Below are positions 7,314 through 42,832 of a DNA stretch of 42,832 nucleotides, one piece after another. The notes beneath the pieces were generated by a model. That model worked only from the letters and a program-made list of their open reading frames with translations, was not told the DNA's origin and made no database searches. Both the position numbers and the translations under genes were made by a program. The number at the start of each line of letters is the position of its first letter. The stretch's first letter is position 1. The stretch covers positions 1-42,832 of the forward strand of contig DWWX01000008.1 of NCBI GenBank assembly GCA_019119495.1. Reading direction: 5' to 3'. Source of the stretch: Candidatus Gemmiger stercorigallinarum (lineage in GTDB: Bacteria; Bacillota; Clostridia; Oscillospirales; Ruminococcaceae).

Positions 7314-7943
7314 ATGGACCCGAACAAAATATACCCCCGCTCCACCGACCGCCAGACGGTCTATCTAAAAAACGTCATCCACGACCCCGGCATCCAGGTG
7401 GGCGATTTTACGATCTACAACGACTTTGTCAACGACCCGCGGCAGTTTGAGAAAAACAATGTGCTGTACCGGTATCCCATCAACCGCGACAGGCTGGTGA
7501 TCGGCAAATTCTGTTCCATCGCCTGCGGGGCAAAGTTCCTGTTTACCAGCGCCAACCACACGCTGACATCGCTGTCCACCTACCCCTTCCCTCTCTTTTT
7601 TGAGGAATGGGGGCTGGATATCCGGGAGGTTCCGTCGGCCTGGGACAACAAAGGCGGCATCACCCTGGGCAGCGACGTTTGGGTGGGGTACGAGGCCGTG
7701 ATCCTGTCCGGCGTCACGGTCGGGGACGGCGCAGTCATTGCCGCCCGCGCCGTGGTGACCGGGGATGTGCCGCCGTACACCATCGTCGGCGGCGTGCCCG
7801 CCAGGCCGATCCGCAAACGCTTTCCCGACCAGGTGATCGCCGCTTTGCAGGCGGAGCGGTGGTGGGACTGGCCGGCGGAGAAGATCCGCCGGCACATGGG
7901 CGACATCCGCGCCGGCCGGTCCGACCGGCTGGTGCGGCCCTGA
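7314..7943 (+). CDS. Vat/CatB-like xenobiotic acetyltransferase
   Basis: A 209-residue left-handed beta-helix acyltransferase with hexapeptide repeats (IGKFCSIACGAKF; LGSDVWVGYEAVILSGVTVG). The sequence ANHTLTSLSTYPF matches the active-site loop of Vat/CatB enzymes, where the His of ANH is the catalytic base, and the C-terminal RWWDWPAEKI is also a family signature. Known members use acetyl-CoA to acetylate streptogramin A or chloramphenicol, but many chromosomal homologues have no proven drug substrate. The start at 7314 has GGGAGG 6 bases upstream. Its neighbour is the Ntn hydrolase; the pair may act on one amide or amine metabolite. Confidence 0.8.
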   Translation: MDPNKIYPRSTDRQTVYLKNVIHDPGIQVGDFTIYNDFVNDPRQFEKNNVLYRYPINRDRLVIGKFCSIACGAKFLFTSANHTLTSLSTYPFPLFFEEWGLDIREVPSAWDNKGGITLGSDVWVGYEAVILSGVTVGDGAVIAARAVVTGDVPPYTIVGGVPARPIRKRFPDQVIAALQAERWWDWPAEKIRRHMGDIRAGRSDRLVRP

Positions 7944-7984
7944 CCGGCCCGCCGCCGGGCGCCGCGCCAGAACAGACCATCCCG

Positions 7985-9379: not shown

Positions 9380-9540
9380 CCCGGCGGGCGGTATTTCCTG
9401 TGCGTACCCTTCCCCATCGCTCGTGGAGACGTACCTTCCAGCCGCCCGGCGATCTGACTGTGACAGTAGCGGGACTGTGAGGGACTTTCACCCTGCTTCT
9501 CCGGTGGGCGGCCCGGCCAGTGCCGGTCCGCCCCTGCGGC
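9380..9540 (-). ncRNA. Cobalamin riboswitch
   Basis: The minus-strand leader carries the conserved core of B12 aptamers. GGGTGAAAGTCCC is followed by CACAGTCCCGCTACTGT near 9492-9460, then a GATGGGGAAGG segment, then a degenerate B12 box (CAGGAAATACCGCC, about 9402-9387) able to pair with an upstream GGGCGG. A promoter lies about 110 bases upstream and a terminator downstream. Boundaries are approximate. Confidence 0.8.
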
Positions 9541-31909: not shown

Positions 31910-31950
31910 GCTGTCCCCCTCTCTGGTCGGCAGTCGGCCGCTTTTACAGA

Positions 31951-32105
31951 TAAACCGGCATTTCCCAAGTTTCTGCGCAAAAACGGGCTGCAAAAAGCAC
32001 TTTCACGATGCACGGCACAGCTGCGCCAGCCTGCTGCTCAAGCAGGGCGTGTCCATGAAGCAGATTCAGGAATGGCTGGGCCACAGTGACATCGCCACCA
32101 CCCGG
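31951..32105 (+). pseudogene. Tyrosine integrase, C-terminal remnant
   Basis: A plus-strand fragment reads FPKFLRKNGLQK in one frame and, after a one-base shift near 31994-31998, HFHDARHSCASLLLKQGVSM then KQIQEWLGHSDIATTR. These are the R-H box (H-x-x-R-H) and LGH box of phage-type tyrosine recombinases. Sequence identity to the family stops at about 32105, before the catalytic Tyr, and runs straight into the 3' end of the zeta-toxin remnant. No start or ribosome binding site is present. It is the relic of an older mobile element at this site. Confidence 0.8.
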
Positions 32106-32107
32106 AA

Positions 32108-32567
32108 GCCGTTGTCGTTGTCATAGAAGGTCGCCTCATTGCACAGCGGCAGCAGCTTGCCCAGGTCACAGAAACGCCGGGCAAACCAGCGCTCCACATC
32201 CCGGGTCGGGATGTCGTGGCCGCCGCGGGCCACCCGGTTGGCGATGCGGCGGACCGATTCCTCGGCGGTATCCAGCCCCACATAGTACAGCCGCACGGTA
32301 TAGCCCTTGTTCCGGGCCGCGCAGGCCATCTTGCGGAAGAAGCTGCCGGAGAGGGTGCTTTCCTCGGTGAAGTCGATACCCTGGGCCAGGCAGTCCTGCA
32401 GCTTGGCAACAGCCGCCTGGCCCCCGGCGTATTCATCGCCGCTGTGCTGGGCAATGATGCGATCCGGGTCCACGACCATGCCGAGCATGGCGAACACCCG
32501 GACAAAGCGCCGGACAAGCTGCCTTGCCAACGCCGTTGACGCCGCCGATCAGAGTAAAGACAGGCAT
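32108..32567 (-). pseudogene. Zeta-toxin/AAA kinase family gene, frameshifted and truncated
   Basis: The start at 32567 (AGGGAG upstream) gives MPVFTLIGGVNGVGK, a Walker A N-terminus of the zeta-toxin-like family. Immediately after the Lys the frame breaks; the continuation VDPDRIIAQHSGDEYAGGQA, then GIDFTEESTLSGSFF, YYVGLDTAEESVRRIANRVA and GGHDIPTRDVERWFARRF, is in another frame. The C-terminus is cut after FYDNDNGFRVVA where the integrase fragment begins. Family members phosphorylate small molecules or act as toxins; this copy cannot make an intact enzyme. No antitoxin gene is near. Confidence 0.8.
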
Positions 32568-32591
32568 ATCGCGTCTCCCTTCCAAGTATAC

Positions 32592-32623
32592 AAAAATCCC
32601 CCTCAAGCAGTTAAGCTGAGGGG
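32592..32623 (-). terminator. Terminator behind the tRNA-Ser fragment
   Basis: Stem TGAGGGG/CCCCTCA (32599-32605 with 32617-32623) followed on the minus strand by GATTTTTG. It lies 6 bases behind the CCA end of the tRNA fragment and is probably the native terminator of the original tRNA gene. Confidence 0.75.
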
Positions 32624-32628
32624 AAAAA

Positions 32629-32688
32629 TGGCGGAGCATCAGAGATTTGAACTCTGGCGGCGCTGTTAACGCCCTATCGCATTTCGAG
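32629..32688 (-). repeat. attachment-site remnant: 3' 60 bases of a tRNA-Ser
   Basis: On the minus strand this stretch reads from an anticodon loop CTCGAAA (anticodon CGA) through a long variable arm (GGCG...CGCC), a T-arm containing AGAGTTCAAATCTCT and an acceptor end GATGCTCCGCCA. That is the 3' half of a serine tRNA. The matching 5' half (which should begin GGAGCAT) is absent upstream; the anticodon-stem partner is wrong. This is the expected product of integration into the 3' half of a tRNA gene. Confidence 0.78.
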
Positions 32689-33071
32689 TCCCGCGAGCCA
32701 TTGGCAGATTGGTGCCCGCGGCGGTCAGAACAGGCCGGTTCGTCCCCGATTTTTCGCGGCGGTCAGCCGTATTTCGGTCGAAATGCAAAAGTATCCTCGA
32801 TGGTACGAATCGTTTTAAAGCGCCCGTTTTGCCTCGGTTTTGCACGCATTTTTGGAAAAATGCAAGATGGGATGCAAGATAAGAGGGAGCCTGCCAAGCC
32901 GCATGGAGACTGGCCTGGCGCGGATATGCCTGCAGACCGACCCCGGAAGATGCGAGATTTGAACCCGATTTTGCGTACTAATTTACGAAAATATTCCGTT
33001 TTGTATAATTCACAGCTGTTCTCCGGCGATGGAAGTTTCACAATACCCATGCCAAAAAGGAGAACACGATC
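32689..33071. other. Island edge, non-coding
   Basis: No gene is supported. The stretch carries a second T-arm-like sequence (32944-32967) and the promoter at 32982-33009. Confidence 0.55.
32982..33009 (+). promoter_or_regulatory. Promoter of the tandem-HTH gene
   Basis: -35 TTTACG (32982-32987), 16-base spacer, perfect -10 TATAAT (33004-33009). Confidence 0.65.
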
Positions 33072-33686
33072 ATGGCAAACACGACCCAAAAGCGCACAAC
33101 TGAGCTGGAAAAGGAGATCGCGGCCGCCTTGGCCGCCTATCCCGACCCCATGTCCCGCACCGATTTCCGCAAGGTCTGCCACATTGGTACCCGGACGTCC
33201 ATCTACCTGCTGCAGAGCGGCCTGGTGCCCTGCCACAACACCGGCAAGCGCACCCGCTGCTACCGGATCGCCAAGGCGGACGTGGCCGACTATCTGCGCC
33301 GCCGCGCCGCCGACCCGGCACGCTATACACCGCCCAGCGGCTGGTACAAAAACTACCCCAACCACAAGCCGCCGGAAAACGCCCTGGTCCGCCGCCTGGA
33401 GCTGACCGGCCCCCGCCGCAAAAAGCTGCGCAGCCGCCTGGCCAAACAGCTGGCCAAGGCGCCCGATGTGCTGACCTTGCAGCAGATCTGCGACATCACC
33501 GGTTACAACCGCCACACGGTCAGCCGCTGGTGTACCGAGGGGCGGCTCAAACCGATCATGAAAACGCCTACCTTCCGGGTGCCCAAGGTCTGGCTGCTGG
33601 ACTTCCTGTGTTCGGTTGATTACAACAACATCTGCCGCAAAAGCCGGAAGCACAACCAGATGGTGCGGGAGATGCAGGAATTGTAA
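33072..33686 (+). CDS. Tandem helix-turn-helix DNA-binding protein
   Basis: A 204-residue basic protein with two excisionase/MerR-like helix-turn-helix units. The first (about 28-75) reads RTDFRKVCHIGTRTSIYLLQ, then GLVPCHNTGKRTRCYRIAK; the second (about 138-185) reads TLQQICDITGYNRHTVSRWC, then GRLKPIMKTPTFRVPKVWL. Both share the order helix, helix, G-L/R-x-P, basic wing, D-Y/F-L. The middle is Lys/Arg-rich. AAAAAGGAG precedes the start. As first gene inside the island edge it may be a recombination directionality factor or a regulator. Confidence 0.72.
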   Translation: MANTTQKRTTELEKEIAAALAAYPDPMSRTDFRKVCHIGTRTSIYLLQSGLVPCHNTGKRTRCYRIAKADVADYLRRRAADPARYTPPSGWYKNYPNHKPPENALVRRLELTGPRRKKLRSRLAKQLAKAPDVLTLQQICDITGYNRHTVSRWCTEGRLKPIMKTPTFRVPKVWLLDFLCSVDYNNICRKSRKHNQMVREMQEL

Positions 33687-33921: not shown

Positions 33922-34182
33922 TCAATACGCATACTTCGCCCTCATCGCGCGAAACACGTCGCCAGCCTCCAGCAGATCGCCACGAGCCATATTCCCCTCA
34001 GCTTCGAGGAGTTTGGGATATACCTCCTCTCGCGTACAGCGGCGCTCAAACTCTTCAATGCTCATAGCGACCAAATCCCGCCATCCATTTTTGGTGATCA
34101 AGACCGGTCCCGCCGTTGTATGGCACAGTCGGGAGATGGCACTCGTATCGCGCAGATCGCGCATGGAGCGAATTTCAGGCAT
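33922..34182 (-). CDS. Phd/YefM family antitoxin (orphan)
   Basis: An 86-residue protein beginning MPEIRSMRDLRDTSAISRLC, then GPVLITKNGWRDLVAMSIEE, the DNA-binding fold of Phd/YefM antitoxins that repress their own operon and neutralise a partner toxin with their C-terminal tail. GAGGTG precedes the start at 34182. No toxin gene (RelE, Doc or Fic type) lies downstream or upstream, so it is an orphan, a solitary regulator, or the relic of a lost pair. Confidence 0.85.
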   Translation of the reverse strand: MPEIRSMRDLRDTSAISRLCHTTAGPVLITKNGWRDLVAMSIEEFERRCTREEVYPKLLEAEGNMARGDLLEAGDVFRAMRAKYAY

Positions 34183-34227
34183 ATAAATCACCTCTTGGGC
34201 GCAGTGTAGCACGATTGTGTCACGCTG

Positions 34228-34350
34228 TCACTTTCGCTGTCGGATGATATAGGCCTTGCCCACCTGGCGCGCCCCGTCCACCAACAGGATGCGCGGGTCC
34301 TGAGTGCGCAGATGGTCGGCAATCAGGCGGGGAATTTTTCGGTACAGCAT
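34228..34350 (-). pseudogene. AAA/DUF4143 ATPase, N-terminal fragment
   Basis: A 40-codon frame reads MLYRKIPRLIADHLRTQDPR and ILLVDGARQVGKAYIIRQRK then stops. It is the N-terminus and Walker A region of the ATPase family represented intact at 34599, but belongs to a different subgroup. The Thr/Ser after the Walker Lys is Ala. The remaining 350-400 residues are absent, apparently replaced by the antitoxin region. Confidence 0.72.
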
Positions 34351-34368
34351 GGCGTACACCCCCATCCA

Positions 34369-34419
34369 AATGACTTTTCAATAGAACTGCACATCGATTC
34401 TAATGACATTTCAATAGAA
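34369..34419. repeat. Two direct repeats before the ATPase fragment
   Basis: AATGACTTTTCAATAGAA (34369-34386) recurs as AATGACATTTCAATAGAA (34402-34419), one mismatch in 18, spaced 33 bases, about three helical turns. Nothing else is seen in 34351-34598. Confidence 0.6.
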
Positions 34420-34598
34420 TGAGACCGCCTGTTTCATAACTTATCAATGATTCTCTAAGTGTACGCATCACAGCTTAGGCAATGACCAAGTCGTGATAAT
34501 GTTTGTTTGGTCAATGGTTTCGCTGCCGAGCAAGCACTTTGGTACCGCGTGAAACAGCCTGTTTTCCCGTACAAAATAGAAAGGTATCGTTGGCAACA

Positions 34599-35891
34599 TC
34601 AGAGCAGTTCTTTTGTCTTTCGGGCCAAATAAAGCGGGATGCTCGTGATCTCGCCGTCCTTCCGATACCCGCGCTTTGAAAAGCGGATGGCGTGTTCCGG
34701 GTGATGCTGCGCAATATACCGCTTAAAGGATGGTGCTGATTTGTCCTCGCCACCTTTTGCCTCAACGGGGATGATTTCTATACCGCGCTGCAGCACAAAA
34801 TCGATCTCCCCGGATTTGTCCGAGTAATAGCGAGGTTCTACCTCAAACTGCCCGCGAAGCTGCTGAAGTACATAATTTTCGGTCAGTGGGCCTTTGAACT
34901 GATAGTTGGATTTCAGCAAAATGGCGCCGTTGTCAATGCCCGCCATGTGTTTGAGCAATCCCGTGTCAAACAGGAAGAGCTTAAACTGATCGAGCTTGTC
35001 AAATGCGGAAAGCGGATGCTCCATCTTGGAAACATTGCAGATGCGGTTGAGTATACCGGCTGATACCAGCCATTCGATCGCTTCCTCAAAATCCCGCGCC
35101 CGGCCGCCCTGCCGGACAGCGCCGTAGATGAACTTCTCGTTGGACTTGGCAAGTTGAGAGACAATGCTGCGGAAGACCATCAGGATGCGCCCGCTGTTTA
35201 CCTTGCCGTTGTGCTTGGAAAAGTCGTTCTCATAAATTTCCACGAGCTCGCGCTGGATCCGGGAAACCGCTGCCGGGTCTTTGTGGTTGACCCACGAAAC
35301 CACACATTCCGGCATGCCGCCGATGATCAAATAGTTGTTGTAGCCTTCCAGCAGGCGGTTGTGGAAGATCTCCTCGATCACCTGCCCTTTCTGAATACTC
35401 TCGTAGTAAACAAAAAGCGCCGGGTCGGTCGCCTCCAGAAACTCGTCAAAATAAAGCGGATACAGATTGAGCAGGTTGACCATGCCCACCGGGTAGGACT
35501 TGGGCTGCGCGAGCAGCGTGCCCAGCAGGCTTCCCGCGGCGATCACGTGGTAGTCGTTTGCCTTTTCTTTGAAGTATTTGAGGGTGTTGAGCGCCTCCGG
35601 GCATTCCTGAATCTCATCAAAAATGATGAGGGTCTCCCCGGGCAGTATCTTTTCCCCGGCGATCAGGGAAAGCAATTCAATGATCCGCTGGGGATTTTTG
35701 TTCGTCTCAAAAATGGATTTCAGTTCATCTTCCTCATCAAAGTTGAAATAGGCAAAGTTTTCATAGCATGTCTGCCCGAACTCCTTCATGAGCCAAGTCT
35801 TGCCGACCTGGCGAGCGCCGCGAATGATCAGCGGCTTGCGCTCGGGATCATTTTTCCATTTTATAAGTTCCGAAATTGCATTGCGTTTCAT
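34599..35891 (-). CDS. AAA family ATPase with DUF4143 domain
   Basis: A 430-residue cytoplasmic ATPase. N-terminal AAA_14 domain with Walker A PLIIRGARQVGKTWLMKEFG and Walker B TLIIFDEIQECPEALNTL; a sensor region VIAAGSLLGTLL; then the C-terminal DUF4143 nuclease-like domain with SGEIDFVLQRGIEIIPVEAK, which holds the D...E-x-K pattern of PD-(D/E)xK folds. The family is frequent on mobile islands and its role is unknown, possibly defence or toxin-like. The ATG at 35891 is chosen over a GTG three codons earlier. Its GC content is clearly lower than the left half of the window, consistent with transfer. Confidence 0.9.
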   Translation of the reverse strand: MKRNAISELIKWKNDPERKPLIIRGARQVGKTWLMKEFGQTCYENFAYFNFDEEDELKSIFETNKNPQRIIELLSLIAGEKILPGETLIIFDEIQECPEALNTLKYFKEKANDYHVIAAGSLLGTLLAQPKSYPVGMVNLLNLYPLYFDEFLEATDPALFVYYESIQKGQVIEEIFHNRLLEGYNNYLIIGGMPECVVSWVNHKDPAAVSRIQRELVEIYENDFSKHNGKVNSGRILMVFRSIVSQLAKSNEKFIYGAVRQGGRARDFEEAIEWLVSAGILNRICNVSKMEHPLSAFDKLDQFKLFLFDTGLLKHMAGIDNGAILLKSNYQFKGPLTENYVLQQLRGQFEVEPRYYSDKSGEIDFVLQRGIEIIPVEAKGGEDKSAPSFKRYIAQHHPEHAIRFSKRGYRKDGEITSIPLYLARKTKELL

Positions 35892-35900
35892 GTGCCCCAC

Positions 35901-36192
35901 CGCCTTATCTTAGACTATAACCAGTGTAACACATTTTTCCGGGCTTTGAAAGCATAAATTTGCACATTTTTCCAGCTTTTTAAATGGCAAAAATCACGTT
36001 TTTCCAAATCTATGCGAAATGGAAAATGAATGGGGCCAAAAGCCTTTTCTCAATACAATGTTACAGACTTTTCCTTTTTTGCAATTTTGCGATGTTTTGA
36101 AACAGAAATATGAAATTCGTTCCAATGGTTTTCAGTTCAAACGGAATGATGGGAATGGAGTCCGTTTAGCCTCCTCTCCGCGCTCAGCGGTC
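35901..36192. other. AT-rich spacer without a gene
   Basis: No supported gene between the ATPase and the arsenate-reductase promoter. A 65-codon plus-strand frame at 36019 lacks a ribosome binding site and family resemblance. Confidence 0.55.
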
Positions 36193-36237
36193 TATACATC
36201 TCGCAAGCCCCAATGATATAATAGGCATATAGCCTAT
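36193..36237 (+). promoter_or_regulatory. Promoter with palindromic operator of the DUF5714-ArsC gene
   Basis: -35 TATACA (36193-36198), 18-base spacer, perfect -10 TATAAT (36217-36222). The -10 runs into a perfect palindrome ATAGGCATATAGCCTAT (36221-36237) covering the expected start site. A repressor bound there would block initiation; an ArsR-type repressor is the natural guess but none is encoded nearby. Confidence 0.7.
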
Positions 36238-36265
36238 AGAATACACCCGTCCCAGGAGGTCCCCC

Positions 36266-37387
36266 ATGAGCGAAGAATGTCTGATCTGCGGCGCGCCGCT
36301 GGAATATCTCGAACAGGATACGGTGATGGAGTGCGCCATCTGTCACAAAAAGGAGCCCAGCAAAACCCGCTGCGTCCACGGCCACTATGTCTGCAACAGC
36401 TGCCACACCCATGGGCTGGACGGCATCTTCGGGCTTTGTCTGGCGTCCGACTCCACCGACCCGATTGCCCTCATCCGGCAGATGATGGCGATGCCGTTCT
36501 GCCACATGCACGGCCCGGAACACCATGTGATGGTGGGCGCGGCGCTGCTGACTGCCTACAAGAACGCGGGAGGTGAGCTGGACCTGGAACCGGCCCTGCG
36601 GGAGATCGCCAGCCGCGGCCGTGCCGTGCCGGGCGGTGCCTGCGGATTCTGGGGCGCCTGCGGTGCTGGCGTCAGCGCCGGGCAGTACATGGCCATCGTG
36701 ACACGCTCGACGCCGCTGGCCGCCGAGCCCTGGGGCCTGAGCAACCGCATGACCGCCCGGGCGCTGGAAGCCATCGGCCAGGTGGGCGGGCCGCGGTGCT
36801 GCAAGCGGGATTCCTGGCTGGCAATTCTGGCCGCCATCGACTTCACACGGGAGCAGCTGGGCGTGACGATGAAGCGCAGCGTGCCCACCTGCGACTTTTG
36901 CGCCCAAAACAACCAGTGCATCGGCAAGCGCTGCCCCTTTGCGCCCGTCAACCGGCACAAGTCCAAACCGAAAGTGGCGTTTGTCTGCGTCCACAATTCC
37001 TGCCGCAGCCAGATCGCCGAGGCTCTGGGCAAAGCCCTGGCCGCCGATGTCTTCGAGAGTTACTCCGCCGGGACCGAGGTAAAGCCGCAGATCAACCACG
37101 ACGCCGTCCGCCTGATGAAGCAAGTCTACGGCATCGACATGGAAGCCACCCAACACAGCAAACTGCTGGCCGACCTGCCCGCCGTGGACATCGTCGTGAC
37201 GATGGGCTGCAATGTCCAGTGCCCGGCCCTGCCTTGCCGTCACCGCGAGGACTGGGGCCTTGATGACCCCACCGGGCAGAGCGATGCGGTGTTTTTGAAA
37301 CGATCGAGCATGTGGAAATGTTTTTTGCTTTCCGAGGGAGAAATCGACTCAAAGAAAGTGCGGCCGGGACGTAGGACAGAACTATAA
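36266..37387 (+). CDS. DUF5714-arsenate reductase fusion, frameshifted C-terminus
   Basis: A 373-residue protein with two parts. Residues 1 to about 230 form a Cys-rich DUF5714 domain: LICGAPLEYL, CHKKEPSKTRCVHGHYVCNS, GGACGFWGACGAGVSAGQYM, GPRCCKRDS and CDFCAQNNQCIGKRCPF. Residues 235 to about 345 form a low-molecular-weight-phosphatase type arsenate reductase: active site VAFVCVHNSCRSQIAEAL (C-x5-R), then TMGCNVQCPALPC with the shuttle Cys pair. A missing base near 37291-37297 shifts the frame after DPTGQSDAVF; the other frame reads ETIEHVEMFFAFRG, which looks like the original C-terminal helix. Activity may survive. AGGAGG precedes the start. Confidence 0.85.
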   Translation: MSEECLICGAPLEYLEQDTVMECAICHKKEPSKTRCVHGHYVCNSCHTHGLDGIFGLCLASDSTDPIALIRQMMAMPFCHMHGPEHHVMVGAALLTAYKNAGGELDLEPALREIASRGRAVPGGACGFWGACGAGVSAGQYMAIVTRSTPLAAEPWGLSNRMTARALEAIGQVGGPRCCKRDSWLAILAAIDFTREQLGVTMKRSVPTCDFCAQNNQCIGKRCPFAPVNRHKSKPKVAFVCVHNSCRSQIAEALGKALAADVFESYSAGTEVKPQINHDAVRLMKQVYGIDMEATQHSKLLADLPAVDIVVTMGCNVQCPALPCRHREDWGLDDPTGQSDAVFLKRSSMWKCFLLSEGEIDSKKVRPGRRTEL

Positions 37388-37530
37388 CCTGTCAAAGAAT
37401 GAAGATGCAAAAGTGCCGCAGTATCCGTCGGAAAAGTGAGCAGCGATTATAAAGGCGTTGAAGCATTTTCAAATGGCATAGAGTGGTTGTGTGGCTGACA
37501 GGCAGTGCATTCCGCACCGTCTGCCAGCTT

Positions 37531-38109
37531 TTATTGTTTTAAGCACCGTACCGTCAGACGTGTCTGCCCGCTGAGAGTACAGGTAAACAACGTCAAATCC
37601 CAGTCGCCGCCGGTCATCTCCTTGATGGCGGTGGGCTGCAAGACTTCGGTCTCGGCCACTGTGTAGGCGAACACGGTGCCCTCCACATCGGTGAACGTCA
37701 CCGTATCGCCGGGCTGCAAATTGTCCAGGCGGCCAAAGTGGCTGCGATAGTTGTGGCCGGCAATGACCAGGTTGCCCGCTGTGGTACCAGCGTACCGGCA
37801 GGGGGCGGTTTTCAGTTTGTCGTAGTCCCAGCTGGCCATGACCGGCAGGGTCAGGCCCAGAGTGGGAAAATCCAGCGTGCCGATATACTCGTTGCCATCA
37901 ATCATTATGGTTGGCATCTCGGCCGTTTCTTCCTTAAACGGTTCCTCCGGGGCAGCGGCGGTGTTCGGTATAGCGGCAAGCACCCCCTGCACGCTGGCCG
38001 CTGCCCGGTTACTATCCCACAAATTATAGGCGCACAGAAACAGGGCTGCTGCGATCAGCAGCAGCCCGATGGATGTCCATATACTGGTGTAGCGTGTTTT
38101 ATCCTTCAT
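37531..38109 (-). CDS. Sortase, housekeeping-like, last gene of the pilus operon
   Basis: A 192-residue membrane-anchored transpeptidase: N-terminal helix (WTSIGLLLIAAALFLCAYNL), then the sortase barrel with catalytic His in VIAGHNYRSHFG, catalytic Cys in LTLFTCTLSGQTRL and Arg three residues later. It lacks the C-terminal helix and the lid of class C enzymes, so it is probably the one that anchors finished pili to the wall. Class (B, D or E) is not decided. The ATG at 38109 lies within the end of the upstream LPQTG gene (11-nt overlap). Confidence 0.85.
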   Translation of the reverse strand: MKDKTRYTSIWTSIGLLLIAAALFLCAYNLWDSNRAAASVQGVLAAIPNTAAAPEEPFKEETAEMPTIMIDGNEYIGTLDFPTLGLTLPVMASWDYDKLKTAPCRYAGTTAGNLVIAGHNYRSHFGRLDNLQPGDTVTFTDVEGTVFAYTVAETEVLQPTAIKEMTGGDWDLTLFTCTLSGQTRLTVRCLKQ

Positions 38110-39025
38110 GGTCGTGCTTGCGTTTGCGGCGGGCGCGGAACCGGCCGACGCCCACACAGATCACACCCAAAATTACCAGCAGCGGCACCGGCCACCAAAG
38201 CTGCCCCGTCTGCGGCAGGGTGCCGCCGGTGGACGGTGTGCCGGGCACAGGCGTGCTGCCGGGCTGGCCGGGCTGTTCCGGCTGGCCTGGCTGCTGCCAG
38301 GTGTTGGTCACGGTAAAGGCCAGGCCGTCCTGCTCCACCGCCACGGCAAATCCATCGGGGACGTTCTGCTCGGCCACCTGCCACAGGTGGCCCGGCTCGG
38401 AGGTCCAGGTATAGCGCCAGCCGTTCAGTGCGTTCAGGGTCACGGTGCGGTCAGGCTGGCCATCACAGAGGAGCTGTACAGTCACGCTCAGGGGGCGCGC
38501 GTTCTCGCCGCCCTGCCAGACCTTGGCCACGGTGTATTCCACCGGCTCCGGTGTGACAGCTGTCTCTTCCGCCTTGATTGTCACCGCCGTGTCGCCCTGC
38601 ACATGGATCAGCACCGGCACCGGGATGTACAGCGTGTCGTTTTGCCGCACGGTCTCGCCGATGGCAAGGTACAGCCCCTCCTCCAGCGCGCCAAACTGCA
38701 CGCTGCCGGAGGCCACCCGCCCACTGGCGGCGGGGATTGGGGTATCCTGGGCAACATAGGCGGCCAGAGTCTCGGCGGCGGCGCGCCAGTCGGCGGCAGG
38801 GCTGTCCTCGTCGGGCAGGGTGACCGGGTAGGCAGCAAAATCATCGGTGGGCTGCCAGCCCGCGTCCGATGCCACCGCCACATGGTACAGGTCAAACCGG
38901 ACGTTTTCCCGCTCATGGTAGATGGTCAGGCCGGCACTGCCCGCGGCCATGGCCGGCAGGGCCAGCAGCAACGCCAGAACCAGCGCAAGCAGGGCGCTAA
39001 GATTTCTCTTGTTTGTGTTCCTCAT
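38099..39025 (-). CDS. LPxTG surface protein with Cna-B domain, minor pilin
   Basis: A 308-residue exported wall protein. Signal peptide (SALLALVLALLLALPAMAAG), a central region around residues 45-150, a Cna-B repeat (VEYTVAKVWQGGENARPLSV to AFTVTNTW, with VAEQNVPDGFAV as E-box), a Pro/Gly/Gln-rich stalk, then sorting signal LPQTG (270-274), hydrophobic helix and RARRKRK tail. It would be linked to the pilus tip or base by the sortases on either side. Overlaps the class C sortase gene by 29 bases. Confidence 0.88.
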   Translation of the reverse strand: MRNTNKRNLSALLALVLALLLALPAMAAGSAGLTIYHERENVRFDLYHVAVASDAGWQPTDDFAAYPVTLPDEDSPAADWRAAAETLAAYVAQDTPIPAASGRVASGSVQFGALEEGLYLAIGETVRQNDTLYIPVPVLIHVQGDTAVTIKAEETAVTPEPVEYTVAKVWQGGENARPLSVTVQLLCDGQPDRTVTLNALNGWRYTWTSEPGHLWQVAEQNVPDGFAVAVEQDGLAFTVTNTWQQPGQPEQPGQPGSTPVPGTPSTGGTLPQTGQLWWPVPLLVILGVICVGVGRFRARRKRKHDHEG

Positions 39026-39971
39026 GGTGTTTGGTCGATTCCTCCCGGGTCGGGTTGTTCTGGTTTCCCGCCTTGTGTTGTCGTTGTTTCAGCTGGCGTG
39101 CCCGCCGGATGATGCCCACAATGCCGTAAATCAGCAAAATCAGCGCGACAAGCAGCAGGGCCAGCAGGATGACACGCTCGGTCAGAGAAAGGCCGGAAGC
39201 CGTCCCCTCACCCGCCGCACTCTCGGCGGTGGCGGGGGTTTCGATGCGGTGGCCGCGCACCAGCAGGCGGTGGGTGTTGACACCGTAGGGCGTGCAGGTG
39301 TACAGCGTGACCAGGTCCTCGCCGGGAACGATTTGCAAGGGTTCCATCTCGTCCGGCAGGGTGACCAGGATCTGATCCACCTCGTAGGTCATCACACGGT
39401 CCAGCACCGAGAGGGTGAAGGTGTCGCCCTCCTCCAGCTGGTCGAGATCAGTGAACATTTTGGCTTTGACCAGGCCGTTGTGCGCCGTGATGACGCAATG
39501 GGTGCTGGGGCCGCCGGTGGGCAGGCTGGTGCCGATCCAGAAACCCGCGCCGGACTGCAGGGCCTTTTCCCCGGTGCCCTGGTAGATGGGCAGGTGGACA
39601 TTGATTTTAGGGATGTCGATATAGCCCATCATGCCGGTGCCGAGGGGGTTGAGGTACTGCGAGACATCCTGCAGATCCGCCGCATCCTCGTTCAGGACGG
39701 AGCCGGTAAAGGTGCCGGTCTCAGCCAGGCGGCGGTTGTAGGCCTCGGCGGCGGCCCACAGGTCGGAGTAGTCGGCCTGTTCGGCCTCGGCCACCTGGTT
39801 GTACTGGGCGATCTCCTGCACGGCCTGCCAGCGGGCAAACTGGTCGCTGATGGTTGGGTAGAGCAGCACGCCCAGCCCCGCCAGCATGAGCAGCACCAGG
39901 GCGATGGTGACCAGGCTGGGCCGCCGGGATTTTTTTGCGGGCTTTTGGGGTTGTGTGGTATCGTTTGGCAT
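38997..39971 (-). CDS. Class C (pilin) sortase
   Basis: A 324-residue pilus-polymerising sortase. Two membrane helices flank the barrel (SLVTIALVLLMLAGLGVLLY and RVILLALLLVALILLIYGIV), as usual in class C. Catalytic His is in VITAHNGLVKAKMFTDL, and TLYTCTPYGVNTHRLLVRG carries the Cys and Arg. It joins the major pilin through its IPETG signal. No strong ribosome binding site precedes the ATG at 39971, so the start is the least certain part; translation may be weak relative to pilin. Confidence 0.9.
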   Translation of the reverse strand: MPNDTTQPQKPAKKSRRPSLVTIALVLLMLAGLGVLLYPTISDQFARWQAVQEIAQYNQVAEAEQADYSDLWAAAEAYNRRLAETGTFTGSVLNEDAADLQDVSQYLNPLGTGMMGYIDIPKINVHLPIYQGTGEKALQSGAGFWIGTSLPTGGPSTHCVITAHNGLVKAKMFTDLDQLEEGDTFTLSVLDRVMTYEVDQILVTLPDEMEPLQIVPGEDLVTLYTCTPYGVNTHRLLVRGHRIETPATAESAAGEGTASGLSLTERVILLALLLVALILLIYGIVGIIRRARQLKQRQHKAGNQNNPTREESTKHHEEHKQEKS

Positions 39972-40034
39972 AGGCTTTGTGTACAAGATGGTGCCGGAAC
40001 GCCCGCCGGATGGCGGGGCTCGGCGGCACGGACA

Positions 40035-40126
40035 ACGCCGCAGGCGCAGTGCACGCCTGTGGCGAAGCCCCTGCCGCCGAAACATCAGGAAGGCGTCCCT
40101 GCGATAAGTAGTAGTTTCCTGATGTT
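40035..40126 (-). other. Intercistronic hairpins between pilin and class C sortase
   Basis: An 11-bp perfect stem AACATCAGGAA/TTCCTGATGTT (40081-40091 with 40116-40126, 24-base loop) and a second near-perfect stem CGCCGCAGGCG/CGCCTGTGGCG (about 40035-40063) occupy the gap of about 200 bases. Neither has a T-run. They likely lower or process the downstream mRNA so that pilin exceeds sortase. Confidence 0.55.
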
Positions 40127-40172
40127 CCGGGGCAAGATATGGAGTTGAACTAGCAGCTCACGTTAACAAATG

Positions 40173-41666
40173 TTAACGATCCTGCTTTTTACGGGATTTG
40201 CGGGAGACAACCAGCAGGATGCCGGCAATCACAACGATAGCCGCGCCACCGATGGAGTACATCATGGTGCCGGTGCCGCCGGTCTCGGGAATCGCAGCGT
40301 TGGCAAAGCTGGCATCCACAATGTAATCGACGCCTGCCGCCTCGTCATTGACCTCGATCTCCAGTTCCGTCTCACTGCACACATATCCGTCGGGAGCAGC
40401 AGCCTCTTTCAGATAATAGGTACCCGCATCCAGGCCATCGACACGAATGTAGCCCTCGGCATCGGTGGTCAGCGTGCCATGGTTGTTTATGAGATTTCCA
40501 TCGCTGTCCTTCTGATACAGTCCGAACACGGCGCCTTTCAGGCCTTCATTGGTCACCTGGTCATACTTGAACACACGGATAGCATATGTCTTGACCGTGA
40601 CGGTATCCATTGAGCTGCTCCCCTCAGGATAGCCAACCTGGGCTTTGTTCGTGTAAATACCAGCGGTAGTGTCCGCTTTCAGAGTCGCTGTATACGTGAC
40701 CGTAATGGCCGTAGCGTTTGCAATGTCATTGCTCTTGATGATGCCTGCTTCATACAGTTTGACCAAATCAAGGGTGATGCTAAACTCATGGGTGTTGCTC
40801 AGATCCAAGTTATACTGACCATCAGTCAGCATGGTATCCCCAATCTTGATCACGAAGTTCTTCGGGTCATCAAAGGCCGCATCCAGCGTATCAGCAAAGA
40901 CCAGCTTGTAGCTGCTAGCCGCCTTGGTTGTCGGCTCGTCTACGACAATATAATTGCGCAGGTTATCAGGTACATTGGATTCCAGCTCAAAAGTGACATC
41001 AGTCCCTGCGGCAGCCGTATCGCTTTCGAGTTTTTCATCACCGGCAATGATCCACTTGTTCAGACCAGGCTTGCTGATTTTCTCGCCGGGCTCCTCGGGC
41101 TTTTCGTCGGGATCCGTGGTGCCCGGGGCTGTGGCAGGGGCGCCGACGCTGCAAGTCGTGTTGACCGACTCATCCACAACAGTAGATCCATCGTAAGCTT
41201 TAATCGTAGCGGCAAAGGTCAGCTGGTCATCTTGAACATCAGTGGCGCTGAACGTCTTGGAAACATAGAAGTAGGTCGATGCCATATCTCTAGGGACATC
41301 ACCTATCACAGTGGTTCCCGTTTGCATCGGTGCAGCAGCGGTTTTACCAACCAACGTTGCATCGCCAATGTCAACGGAAAAGTAGGGGGTAACAGCTTCG
41401 TCATTCGGTTCCCCCTCAACGGTCACCTTGTACAGCAAAGTGACCTCCTCCCCATCGTCGAGATTAATGGGATCAGTCGAATAGGTGACACCGTCAAGAT
41501 CAAAAGCCACGAAAATTGCATCGTTGGGCTTATTGGTCACACGTTCAACAGCAAAGTCGGTGATCGTAGGCATCTCAGCAGCAAACGCTGTAACCGGCAG
41601 CATTGCGGCACACATTGCCGCCGCACAGACTGCGGACGCAATGCGTTTCAACCATGTTTTCATCAT
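40173..41666 (-). CDS. Major pilin subunit, IPETG-anchored
   Basis: A 497-residue sortase-polymerised pilin. Signal peptide IASAVCAAAMCAAMLPVTAF; N-terminal domain to about 180; Asp/Glu/Pro linker; D2 domain beginning KPGLNKWIIAGDEKLESD, where the early Lys is a candidate pilin-motif Lys; a C-terminal Cna-B domain (IRVFKYDQVTNEGLKGAVFG; E-box YYLKEAAAPDGY); sorting signal IPETG (459-463), helix and RKSRKKQDR tail. AAAGGAGG precedes ATG-ATG. GC content is visibly lower than chromosomal genes to the left. I could not fix a clear promoter in 41690-41775. Confidence 0.92.
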   Translation of the reverse strand: MMKTWLKRIASAVCAAAMCAAMLPVTAFAAEMPTITDFAVERVTNKPNDAIFVAFDLDGVTYSTDPINLDDGEEVTLLYKVTVEGEPNDEAVTPYFSVDIGDATLVGKTAAAPMQTGTTVIGDVPRDMASTYFYVSKTFSATDVQDDQLTFAATIKAYDGSTVVDESVNTTCSVGAPATAPGTTDPDEKPEEPGEKISKPGLNKWIIAGDEKLESDTAAAGTDVTFELESNVPDNLRNYIVVDEPTTKAASSYKLVFADTLDAAFDDPKNFVIKIGDTMLTDGQYNLDLSNTHEFSITLDLVKLYEAGIIKSNDIANATAITVTYTATLKADTTAGIYTNKAQVGYPEGSSSMDTVTVKTYAIRVFKYDQVTNEGLKGAVFGLYQKDSDGNLINNHGTLTTDAEGYIRVDGLDAGTYYLKEAAAPDGYVCSETELEIEVNDEAAGVDYIVDASFANAAIPETGGTGTMMYSIGGAAIVVIAGILLVVSRKSRKKQDR

Positions 41667-41775
41667 TTACAGGATTCCTCCTTTAGTTTCTTCCAAGATT
41701 GTTGGTTCGGACAAAATAAATAGCCTGCATCCCCCCCTCTGCCTCTGGCAGCGTATTATCTCTATGTCTTGCTCT

Positions 41776-41804
41776 AAAAAGAGCTGCCGAAGCATTGCTT
41801 CAGC
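41776..41804 (-). terminator. Terminator of the recombinase-like gene
   Basis: Minus-strand stem GCTGAAGC/GCTTCGGC (41804-41797 with 41793-41786, three-base loop) followed by AGCTCTTTTT. It separates the recombinase-like gene from the pilus operon. Confidence 0.6.
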
Positions 41805-41836
41805 CAAGAGAATGTTTTGCAATTTGCCGCTTTGCG

Positions 41837-42658
41837 CTATGCACCGCGCTCCACCGTGGCGCTCTGCGGCCAGCCGATGGCCTCCTGCTCCATTTCCAGC
41901 ATCTGGTCGTACATCTGCTGGCGCAGGGCTGCAAGCTGGTCTTCCACCTGCTGCTGTGTTGCCTTGTACAGGTTGCGCAGGCTGCGCGGGTTGCCTTTTT
42001 CCTCCGGCACGCCGGCGGCCTGGCAGACCTCATGCAGCTGACGGAAGATGTTGGACCGGTTCCACGTCTGGCCCGTTCGCGTGATGAACACCGGGCCGCG
42101 GTAGATGCCGTTTTCTGCCATGTAGGCCAGCAGCTCCTGCTGCAGGGCGGGCGGACAGCGGAACCCGAAGGCTCCGTCACGATACTTCAGCGTACCGCTG
42201 CCCTGCTTGACCAGCTCGGCCGTGACCTGGTTCAGGCACTGGATTGGCACCCCAGTGGTGGCAAACAGCTTGATCAGCAGATAGATCCGGTGCTTGCCCA
42301 GGCTGCGCGCCGTGCGGAGCAGCTTTAAGTACTCGGTGCGGGTCAAAGTCGGCGACCGTTCCTGCTCCTCCGTGACCCTGGTGTGGCCCCGCAGCAGGTC
42401 GTACCGGCCACACCACTTGAAATAGTTGTTGGCTGCCGCAAGGTGCACATTGACCGCACTGCGCGTATACACCTGTTCCAGCGACTGCTCCCATTCGGCC
42501 ATTGTCTTTGGCGTGGGGACTCCGTGCTGCACCGTGAACGCCAGCAGGTCATGCAGGCAGTTGGTGTAGTAGCGCCGGGTGTCCGGGTTCCAGCCTTTGT
42601 TCTCCGTCGCCGCAAGGTAATCCGAGATGGAATAGCCTTGCAAGATTTCATCGTTCAT
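41837..42658 (-). CDS. Tyrosine-recombinase-like protein lacking the canonical catalytic residues
   Basis: A 273-residue protein with the two-domain layout of site-specific integrases: an N-terminal SAM-like domain (SISDYLAATENKGWNPDTRR; SAVNVHLAAANNYFKWCGRY) and a C-terminal domain starting TLTRTEYLKLLRTARSLGKH. In the first catalytic box T-G-L-R-I-x-E is replaced by TGVPIQCLNQ; the H-x-x-R box reads RSLRNLYKATQQQ; no LGH box or terminal Tyr motif is obvious. It may be inactive, a regulator, or a divergent subfamily. The start at 42658 is uncertain: a purine-rich GGGAAAGGGGG lies about 12 bases upstream, and the frame stays open to 42829. Confidence 0.7.
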   Translation of the reverse strand: MNDEILQGYSISDYLAATENKGWNPDTRRYYTNCLHDLLAFTVQHGVPTPKTMAEWEQSLEQVYTRSAVNVHLAAANNYFKWCGRYDLLRGHTRVTEEQERSPTLTRTEYLKLLRTARSLGKHRIYLLIKLFATTGVPIQCLNQVTAELVKQGSGTLKYRDGAFGFRCPPALQQELLAYMAENGIYRGPVFITRTGQTWNRSNIFRQLHEVCQAAGVPEEKGNPRSLRNLYKATQQQVEDQLAALRQQMYDQMLEMEQEAIGWPQSATVERGA

Positions 42659-42832
42659 GCGCACAGCAGGCCCCCTTTCCCGCAGCGGTATCGGTGCAGG
42701 TAACAGAAGCGCAGTTCTGTTCCCATAATTAACCCAGGTTAATAAGCCGTCGGCAGGCGGCAACGTATCTGCGTCCAATTTTAGCTTTTCGCAGCAAAAA
42801 AAGGCGCAAAGGAACAGCCGGGCAAACAAGAG

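Follow-up and report, generated by a model that had tools for sequence, protein, structure and literature searches.

A tRNA-Ser(CGA) Half in Candidatus Gemmiger stercorigallinarum as the Probable Scar of an Integrative Element That Splits and Replaces Its Target tRNA Gene

Introduction

The 42,832-nt stretch of Candidatus Gemmiger stercorigallinarum DNA analyzed here, referred to as the window, corresponds to an entire contig (C37; DWWX01000008.1) and contains the 3′ part of a tRNA gene without its 5′ part. This raises the question of which event left half a tRNA gene at this position, and where the other half and a functional tRNA of this kind are located in the genome. An earlier note had interpreted the fragment as the distal attachment (att) copy left by integration of a tyrosine recombinase element into tRNA-Ser(CGA), with an intact tRNA-Ser predicted to the right, beyond the window. 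The first of these statements stands: the sequence at 32629–32689 is the distal att copy left behind by an element situated to its right. With regard to the tRNA itself a different outcome emerges: very probably, an integrative element cut tRNA-Ser(CGA) in two and supplies a complete replacement, the fragment in the window being one of the two halves.

The tRNA Half and Its Surroundings

The half and the features belonging to it are the following:

32629–32689, minus strand: 3′ half of tRNA-Ser(CGA), spanning the anticodon loop through CCA; the displaced half of a split tRNA, identical over 61 of 61 nt to the 3′ halves of intact genes in congeners
32682–32689, minus strand: att core ACTCGAAA, the anticodon loop plus one base, common to the resident tRNA and the element ends and present at left and right junctions in relatives
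32597–32625, minus strand: hairpin of the split tRNA's intrinsic terminator, with a U-run behind it, a fold of −18 kcal/mol and a z-score of −3.45

Read from 32689 to 32629 on the minus strand, the half comprises 61 nt (ACTCGAAATGCG...TGATGCTCCGCCA); the limits of 32592 and 32688 previously assigned to it include the terminator and miss one base. Among 35 Gemmiger genomes, the window's own included, 25 are matched by the 61-nt query at E ≤ 0.001, and nine genomes other than the window's own show a match over all 61 nt (best E 1.0e-25), while the matches in G028 and G010 amount to 97% and 85%, respectively. Scanning of 13 matching loci with ARAGORN revealed four intact tRNA-Ser(CGA) genes, of which three (G019, G024, and G033) contain the fully identical sequence as their 3′ half and the fourth is that of G028, and gave no tRNA call at the other nine. 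In the window, ARAGORN called no tRNA at 32592–32689, and the DNA preceding the loop is 17 edits away from the nearest known 5′ half, in line with the earlier description of a fragment lacking its 5′ half. The terminator likewise lies directly behind the half as described, even though a simple terminator scan of 32400–32900 returned 0 sites, probably because of the bulged stem of the hairpin.

To the right of the half, the following features are found:

32690–33071, no strand: right end (arm) of the integrated element, with GGACGAAnCGGCCTGTT in common with most right ends of relatives (by eye) and TCTTGCAT repeats in common with left arms
32854–32879, minus strand: direct-repeat pair TCTTGCAT...TCTTGCATTTTTCC, probable arm-type integrase sites that align with element left arms
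33072–33686, plus strand: right-end DNA-binding gene of the element (Pfam HTH_17)
33922–42829, no strand: putative element interior or cargo up to the contig end, described by Pfam and gene calls and assigned to the element from its position only

The search pattern for the repeat pair was derived from the window sequence, where its match is by construction; in the element left arms the spacing of the pair is one base longer than in the window, and the repeats of the window arm are those of one integrase clade. The right-end gene shows 64–66% identity to the gene at the same place in seven other right ends, in addition to one partial match. An arm and a right-end gene in common with relatives thus corroborate the proposal of an element to the right of the fragment, of which only part lies on the contig. 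Its putative interior encodes a weakly Phd/YefM-like antitoxin (match below the Pfam cut-off), an AAA_14/DUF4143 ATPase, a DUF5714+LMWPc protein, two sortases and a SpaA-type pilin (Pfam). The two sortases and the pilin (37531–41666) represent pilus-like cargo inside the putative element. Elsewhere in the window, an AdoCbl-II (B12) riboswitch scores above the Rfam gathering score at 9439–9519 on the minus strand, and a 90-nt tRNA-Pro(CGG) called by ARAGORN on the same strand (7863–7952), which overlaps long open reading frames and is not listed by Rfam at gathering score, is possibly spurious.

The DNA to the left of the fragment, previously regarded as native, contains two remnants:

32104–32567, minus strand: decayed zeta-toxin-like gene (PF06414) at the left end of an older element, 89–91% identical over 132 aa to the zeta-like genes beside element tRNAs
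31950–32105, plus strand: tyrosine recombinase remnant of the older element, about 54 aa long (PF00589 positions 110–163)

The order of the zeta-like gene (32567–32104) and the integrase remnant (31950–32105) is that of element left ends, and the same order follows the inner 3′ half of G027 at 2978448. The sequence from 32567 to 31950 accordingly represents a decayed element left end, and the view that everything to the left is native was rejected. The split tRNA of the window is therefore probably itself element-borne, and as it adjoins an older element's decayed left end, the insertion is probably a later layer of a stack.

The Matching Half in the Same Genome

A search with up to three mismatches located the 5′ half in 14 of the 35 genus genomes, including the window's own, where it lies at C38:53246–53283. 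A matching 5′ half in the same genome is thereby established, on a contig that ends inside an element. This 5′ half is broken, with foreign sequence directly after the loop. At a distance of 240 bp from the loop stands a different, complete tRNA-Ser(CGA), and behind it a tyrosine recombinase gene of which the contig, ending there, retains only the 3′ part. The cognate tRNA of this genome thus sits on a contig other than the window, and restoration of the target tRNA, as the earlier note had assumed, did not take place: the resident gene remains broken at the 8-bp core and a different tRNA adjoins its 5′ half.

The 5′ half on C38 and the 3′ half in the window are identical to the corresponding parts of the intact G019 tRNA, and they form seven of seven acceptor and five of five anticodon stem pairs. 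This shows that both halves are of one tRNA type but does not prove that they flank one element, because several relatives have the same halves. C38 looks like the chromosomal site, as an open reading frame about 0.75 kb upstream of its half has a counterpart of 88–91% identity ahead of the split tRNA of both G010 and G021. The left arm on C38 lacks the TCTTGCAT repeats of the right arm in the window, and the two ends may consequently belong to different elements or stack layers.

Searching the assembly (44 contigs, 86.6% complete) yielded no intact tRNA with the window's 3′ half, contrary to the prediction of such a gene to the right beyond the window, although at this completeness the absence, taken alone, is weak evidence. 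The earlier note had regarded the lack of an intact tRNA-Ser with the same 60-nt 3′ end as an argument against an island; no such gene was found, yet the island reading survives because the tRNA was swapped rather than restored. The same genome contains tRNA-Ser(UGA) and tRNA-Ser(GCU) on C12 and a broken integrase of the first clade on C32.

Split tRNAs in Related Genomes

Relatives of the integrase were found 39 times in public genomes of Gemmiger, Fournierella, Anaeromassilibacillus, Ruminococcaceae, Saccharofermentans, and others. An intact tRNA-Ser(CGA) lies near the integrase in 32 of these, and a split 5′ half at −157 to −178 in 23 of the 31 testable loci, that is, those with enough upstream DNA. 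Seven relatives, mostly on short contigs, have no tRNA-Ser in the available DNA; one of the seven, L130 (integrase 85% identical), has 10 kb of sequence beyond the integrase. In a family sample, 60 of 297 genomes encode such an integrase at E ≤ 1e-90; 30 loci from this sample comprise 19 with tRNA-Ser(CGA), three with tRNA-Leu and eight with neither. One of the tRNA-Leu loci (L222; G075:C60) shows the same splitting and replacement with tRNA-Leu(UAA) and a Leu half next to a related integrase, and the other two show no split.

Pooling resulted in 59 distinct loci (three of them tRNA-Leu), 58 of them testable (all but L139), and a split half was found in 41, after two of 43 listed loci (L120 and L193) had been dropped by hand as not tRNA-like; the search for halves relied on the anticodon loop of the tRNA itself and would miss splits of other tRNAs. 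The number of split halves is one, two, and three in 30, 9, and 2 loci, respectively, so that 11 of 41 loci have two or three, and some of the counted 5′ halves are decayed (L135 and L137). A split 5′ half is present in 40 of the 51 testable loci in which an integrase follows the tRNA within 4 kb. Loci without an integrase nearby have one in a single case out of seven, namely L101, where the contig ends 693 bp past the tRNA, and in none of the other six. The integrase beside the tRNA (PF00589+PF14659), for which seven examples are 82–99% identical to the first, presumably performs the recombination.

The type of each half can be followed by its base pairing. Of 34 tRNA types, three tRNA-Leu and one lacking CCA were skipped; the remaining 30, all tRNA-Ser(CGA), keep 509 of 510 stem pairs, with many compensatory changes. 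Halves flanking an element form all seven acceptor pairs in six of six cases tested and all five anticodon stem pairs in four, with four of five in G010 and three of five in the inner element of G027; in four of the six, the sequences are the same and the pairing is uninformative on which 5′ half belongs to which 3′ half. Mixed pairs of different tRNA types reach 4–6 of 7 in the acceptor and 1–5 of 5 in the anticodon stem. At the left junctions, 125 of 270 anticodon stem pairs are kept, and 9 of 54 junctions keep four of five.

These junctions bear on the usual outcome reported for integration into tRNA genes, in which attP carries a 3′ half, one end of the element bears a rebuilt tRNA and the other a displaced copy (Islander; PMC4383910, as far as its accessible text describes). 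Such restoring integration would fit the 11 of 51 testable integrase-linked loci with an intact tRNA and no upstream half (of 17 such loci among all 58 testable). At the junctions examined, it is contradicted by a common core of only 8 bp, by arm sequence instead of a 3′ half behind the resident 5′ half in the 40 loci mentioned above, and by the misfit between the native 5′ half and the 3′ half of the element tRNA (type A, 4/7 acceptor and 3/5 anticodon stem pairs; type C, 5/7 and 4/5). It is therefore considered very unlikely.

Copy Number and Promoters

Each of ten genomes at least 98% complete yielded one intact tRNA-Ser(CGA), and in eight of them a split half lies directly upstream of this sole intact copy found. 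A single copy in all ten is compatible with the element tRNA being needed for viable integration. Codon UCG may also be read by tRNA-Ser(UGA).

In a scan for sigma-70 promoters counting scores of at least 9, 35 of 41 outermost split halves are preceded by a promoter. Element tRNAs have one in only 2 of 36 arms, compared with 3.2% of 1800 shuffled arms; L152 and L154, whose arms do carry a promoter, are the exceptions. Promoters of this score also occur in 12 of the 17 loci without a half (a set that here includes L118, with score 0, L120, and L193), and in several of these the tRNA lies directly behind a strong promoter. This distribution leads us to infer that the element tRNA is transcribed from the promoter of its predecessor.

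A role of phage tRNAs against anticodon nucleases or in codon supply has been proposed (PMC10264068; also mentioned in PMC10865867, both in the parts accessible), and by analogy the element tRNA might mainly serve such a purpose, with the split of the resident gene being incidental. The element tRNA is, however, of the very kind that is broken, Ser(CGA) or, together with a Leu half, Leu(UAA) at L222, in a search that used the tRNA's own loop, and it is the only intact Ser(CGA) found in the eight genomes just mentioned, which renders this explanation highly improbable.

Stacked and Nested Elements

Replacement of the broken gene by an element tRNA is further illustrated by genomes in which both ends of an element can be followed. 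Complementary halves lie 16–69 kb apart with an integrase beside the tRNA, and the junctions are found at the anticodon loop. In the single contig of G034, halves at 1683927 and 1705642 flank an element, and the single contig of G027 contains two nested elements in an onion-like order: native 5′ half, hybrid type-A 5′ half and intact type-A tRNA are followed by the type-A 3′ half and, outermost, the native 3′ half. Two human-fecal records (L191 and L192) show two stacked halves each. In addition, one combination of arm and tRNA occurs behind different resident 5′ halves, depending on the genome, which suggests that insertion has repeatedly used the same position in the loop.

Half-tRNAs could alternatively be decayed copies arising from tRNA duplication or homologous recombination, and the hybrid 5′ half of G027 indicates that recombination among copies does occur. 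Neither process accounts for junctions placed at the anticodon loop, for the spacing of complementary halves with an integrase beside the tRNA or for the association of halves with the integrase (40/51); in a stricter test halves were found at 37 of 55 tRNA-Ser(CGA) and at 0 of 26 other tRNAs serving as control (28 listed, two dropped for short upstream DNA), and this origin appears exceedingly improbable. The least probable explanation of all, a misassembly joining the fragment to the right part of the window, could invoke the 44 contigs and 86.6% completeness of the draft, the contig ending inside an element, and the C38 arm type unlike the window's right arm, but the same order of right arm, core, 3′ half, and HTH gene recurs in G027 and G034, each a single contig, and in four further genomes.

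Several further observations concern these loci. The hybrid of two tRNA types in G027 (C1:2952326–2952363) points to gene conversion between stacked halves. G008 has two 3′ halves (C22:85869 and 125367), one decayed and the other an additional copy of type A, that misfit a simple one-element reading. Several integrases (G027:C1:11713 and 2979157; G034:C1:1684904; G000:C32:7106, L207) share their point of interruption, at identical codons of the catalytic region between FHDLRH and SCASLL, and have similar foreign ends; the N-terminal part is present in G027 and on G000:C32, the C-terminal part in G027 and G034. This pattern would fit another mobile element with a preference for the motif.

Gene Content of the Elements and Candidate attP

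The element of G010 spans about 26 kb and contains the tRNA, a zeta-like gene, the integrase, a MobA/VirD2-type relaxase, an AAA_25 (RepA-like) ATPase, HTH genes, the BREX genes BrxA, BrxB, PglX, PglZ, and BrxL and the right-end HTH gene. The BREX phage-defense genes are carried as element cargo (L097/L098; G010:C9:35426–49854). Near-identical gene starts in the same order are found in G008 and G027; the G008 element apparently contains transporter genes (by eye) and the inner element of G027 a type I methyltransferase. No phage structural family was detected in the G010 element among the 12 of 15 called genes that were scanned, and the elements are described here as relaxase-bearing integrative elements, without a claim of lysogeny.

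Five related integrases stem from records filed as “Bacteriophage sp.” One record of this name, the human-fecal MT836946, joins a right-end HTH gene (36% identity to that of the window over 181 aa), core, left arm, tRNA and integrase, has no tRNA half and contains ParA/ParB-like genes (by eye). Its layout is as expected of attP, and the ends of the record do not overlap. A Gemmiger-type attP junction was found in none of the 35 genus genomes. In IMG/VR, the junction search returned four contigs with unrelated context by eye, none of them convincing, and an integrase scan gave three distant matches only (25–30% identical).

Discussion

The proposed mechanism may be summarized as follows. Recombination between attP and the tRNA gene, catalyzed by a tyrosine recombinase, would take place within the 7-nt anticodon loop. 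The tRNA would not be rebuilt, because attP has only about 8 bp in common with the gene, and the 5′ half with the promoter would thus stay at one end of the element and the 3′ half with the terminator at the other, an arrangement seen at the junctions in relatives and consistent with the presence of both halves in the window's own genome. The element would bring a complete tRNA-Ser(CGA), usually of different sequence and located 135–240 bp from the left end in relatives, which mostly lacks a recognizable promoter in the scan and would be transcribed from that of the broken tRNA. Since it has the same anticodon loop, the element tRNA can in turn act as the next landing site, with 5′ halves stacking on the left and 3′ halves nesting on the right, as observed in relatives. 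The wider interpretation, which we regard as moderately probable, is that of a self-renewing attachment site: elements of gut Clostridia break the host's single tRNA-Ser(CGA), capture its promoter for their own silent tRNA and pile up nested while older halves decay, leaving the host dependent on a horizontally replaced gene.

Splitting plus replacement is already known from some phages. In tRNA-dependent lysogeny of Actinobacteria phages (Guerrero-Bustamante and Hatfull, 2024; PMC10865867), as in the elements described here, a tyrosine integrase acts, or here presumably acts, within a tRNA gene, the tRNA is not reconstructed and a cognate tRNA is present on the element. In contrast to these phages, the carriers here are relaxase-bearing integrative elements of Oscillospirales. 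Moreover, the tRNA of phage Fionnbharth has its own strong promoter, whereas the tRNA near the element end here mostly has no clear one. Here the element tRNA also constitutes the next attB; the word “nested” is absent from the accessible text of PMC10865867. That text leaves open the occurrence beyond actinophages and urges a search there, with one Lactobacillus prophage as a suspect. In Sinorhizobium meliloti, a host tRNA gene is described as substituted by a phage-borne one and likened to tRNA-dependent lysogeny (PMC11476347; PMC12429752), so that such behavior has already been suggested outside Actinobacteria. These cases are prophages, and stacking and promoter use were not found described in the accessible parts of those two articles.

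Other known systems resemble the elements in part. Islander tDNA islands (PMC4383910) likewise combine an anticodon-loop crossover, a displaced 3′ fragment, and an integrase; as described in the accessible text, they restore the tDNA, which the present elements do not, and a search built on restoration would therefore mis-pair these elements. ICEMh1-like elements at tRNA-Leu (PMC6861422) share the anticodon-loop repeat but belong to other bacteria and use another recombinase, and splitting plus replacement is not given as an explanation in the part of that article available. Integrative and mobilizable elements share the combination of an integrase and a MobA/VirD2-type relaxase, as seen in G010, and none with a replacement tRNA was found in the literature searched, which included little subscription literature. 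Within the same literature, three features look new: carriage by relaxase-bearing elements in Oscillospirales, a replacement tRNA that mostly lacks a promoter, and serial nesting in the tRNA of the previous element.

The findings extend a behavior of actinophages, suggested also for Sinorhizobium prophages and one Lactobacillus prophage, to relaxase-bearing elements of Bacillota, and add two features unmatched in the literature searched, namely a replacement tRNA that is probably expressed through promoter capture, and renewal of the landing site with each insertion. They account for clusters of tRNA halves that resemble pseudogenes or restored islands, and they call for caution with island finders built on restoration. 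For the bacteria concerned, the elements provide a route for horizontal replacement of a tRNA gene. Finally, the existence of natural tRNA halves separated at the anticodon loop may be relevant to ideas on split tRNA genes, a link that we draw ourselves.
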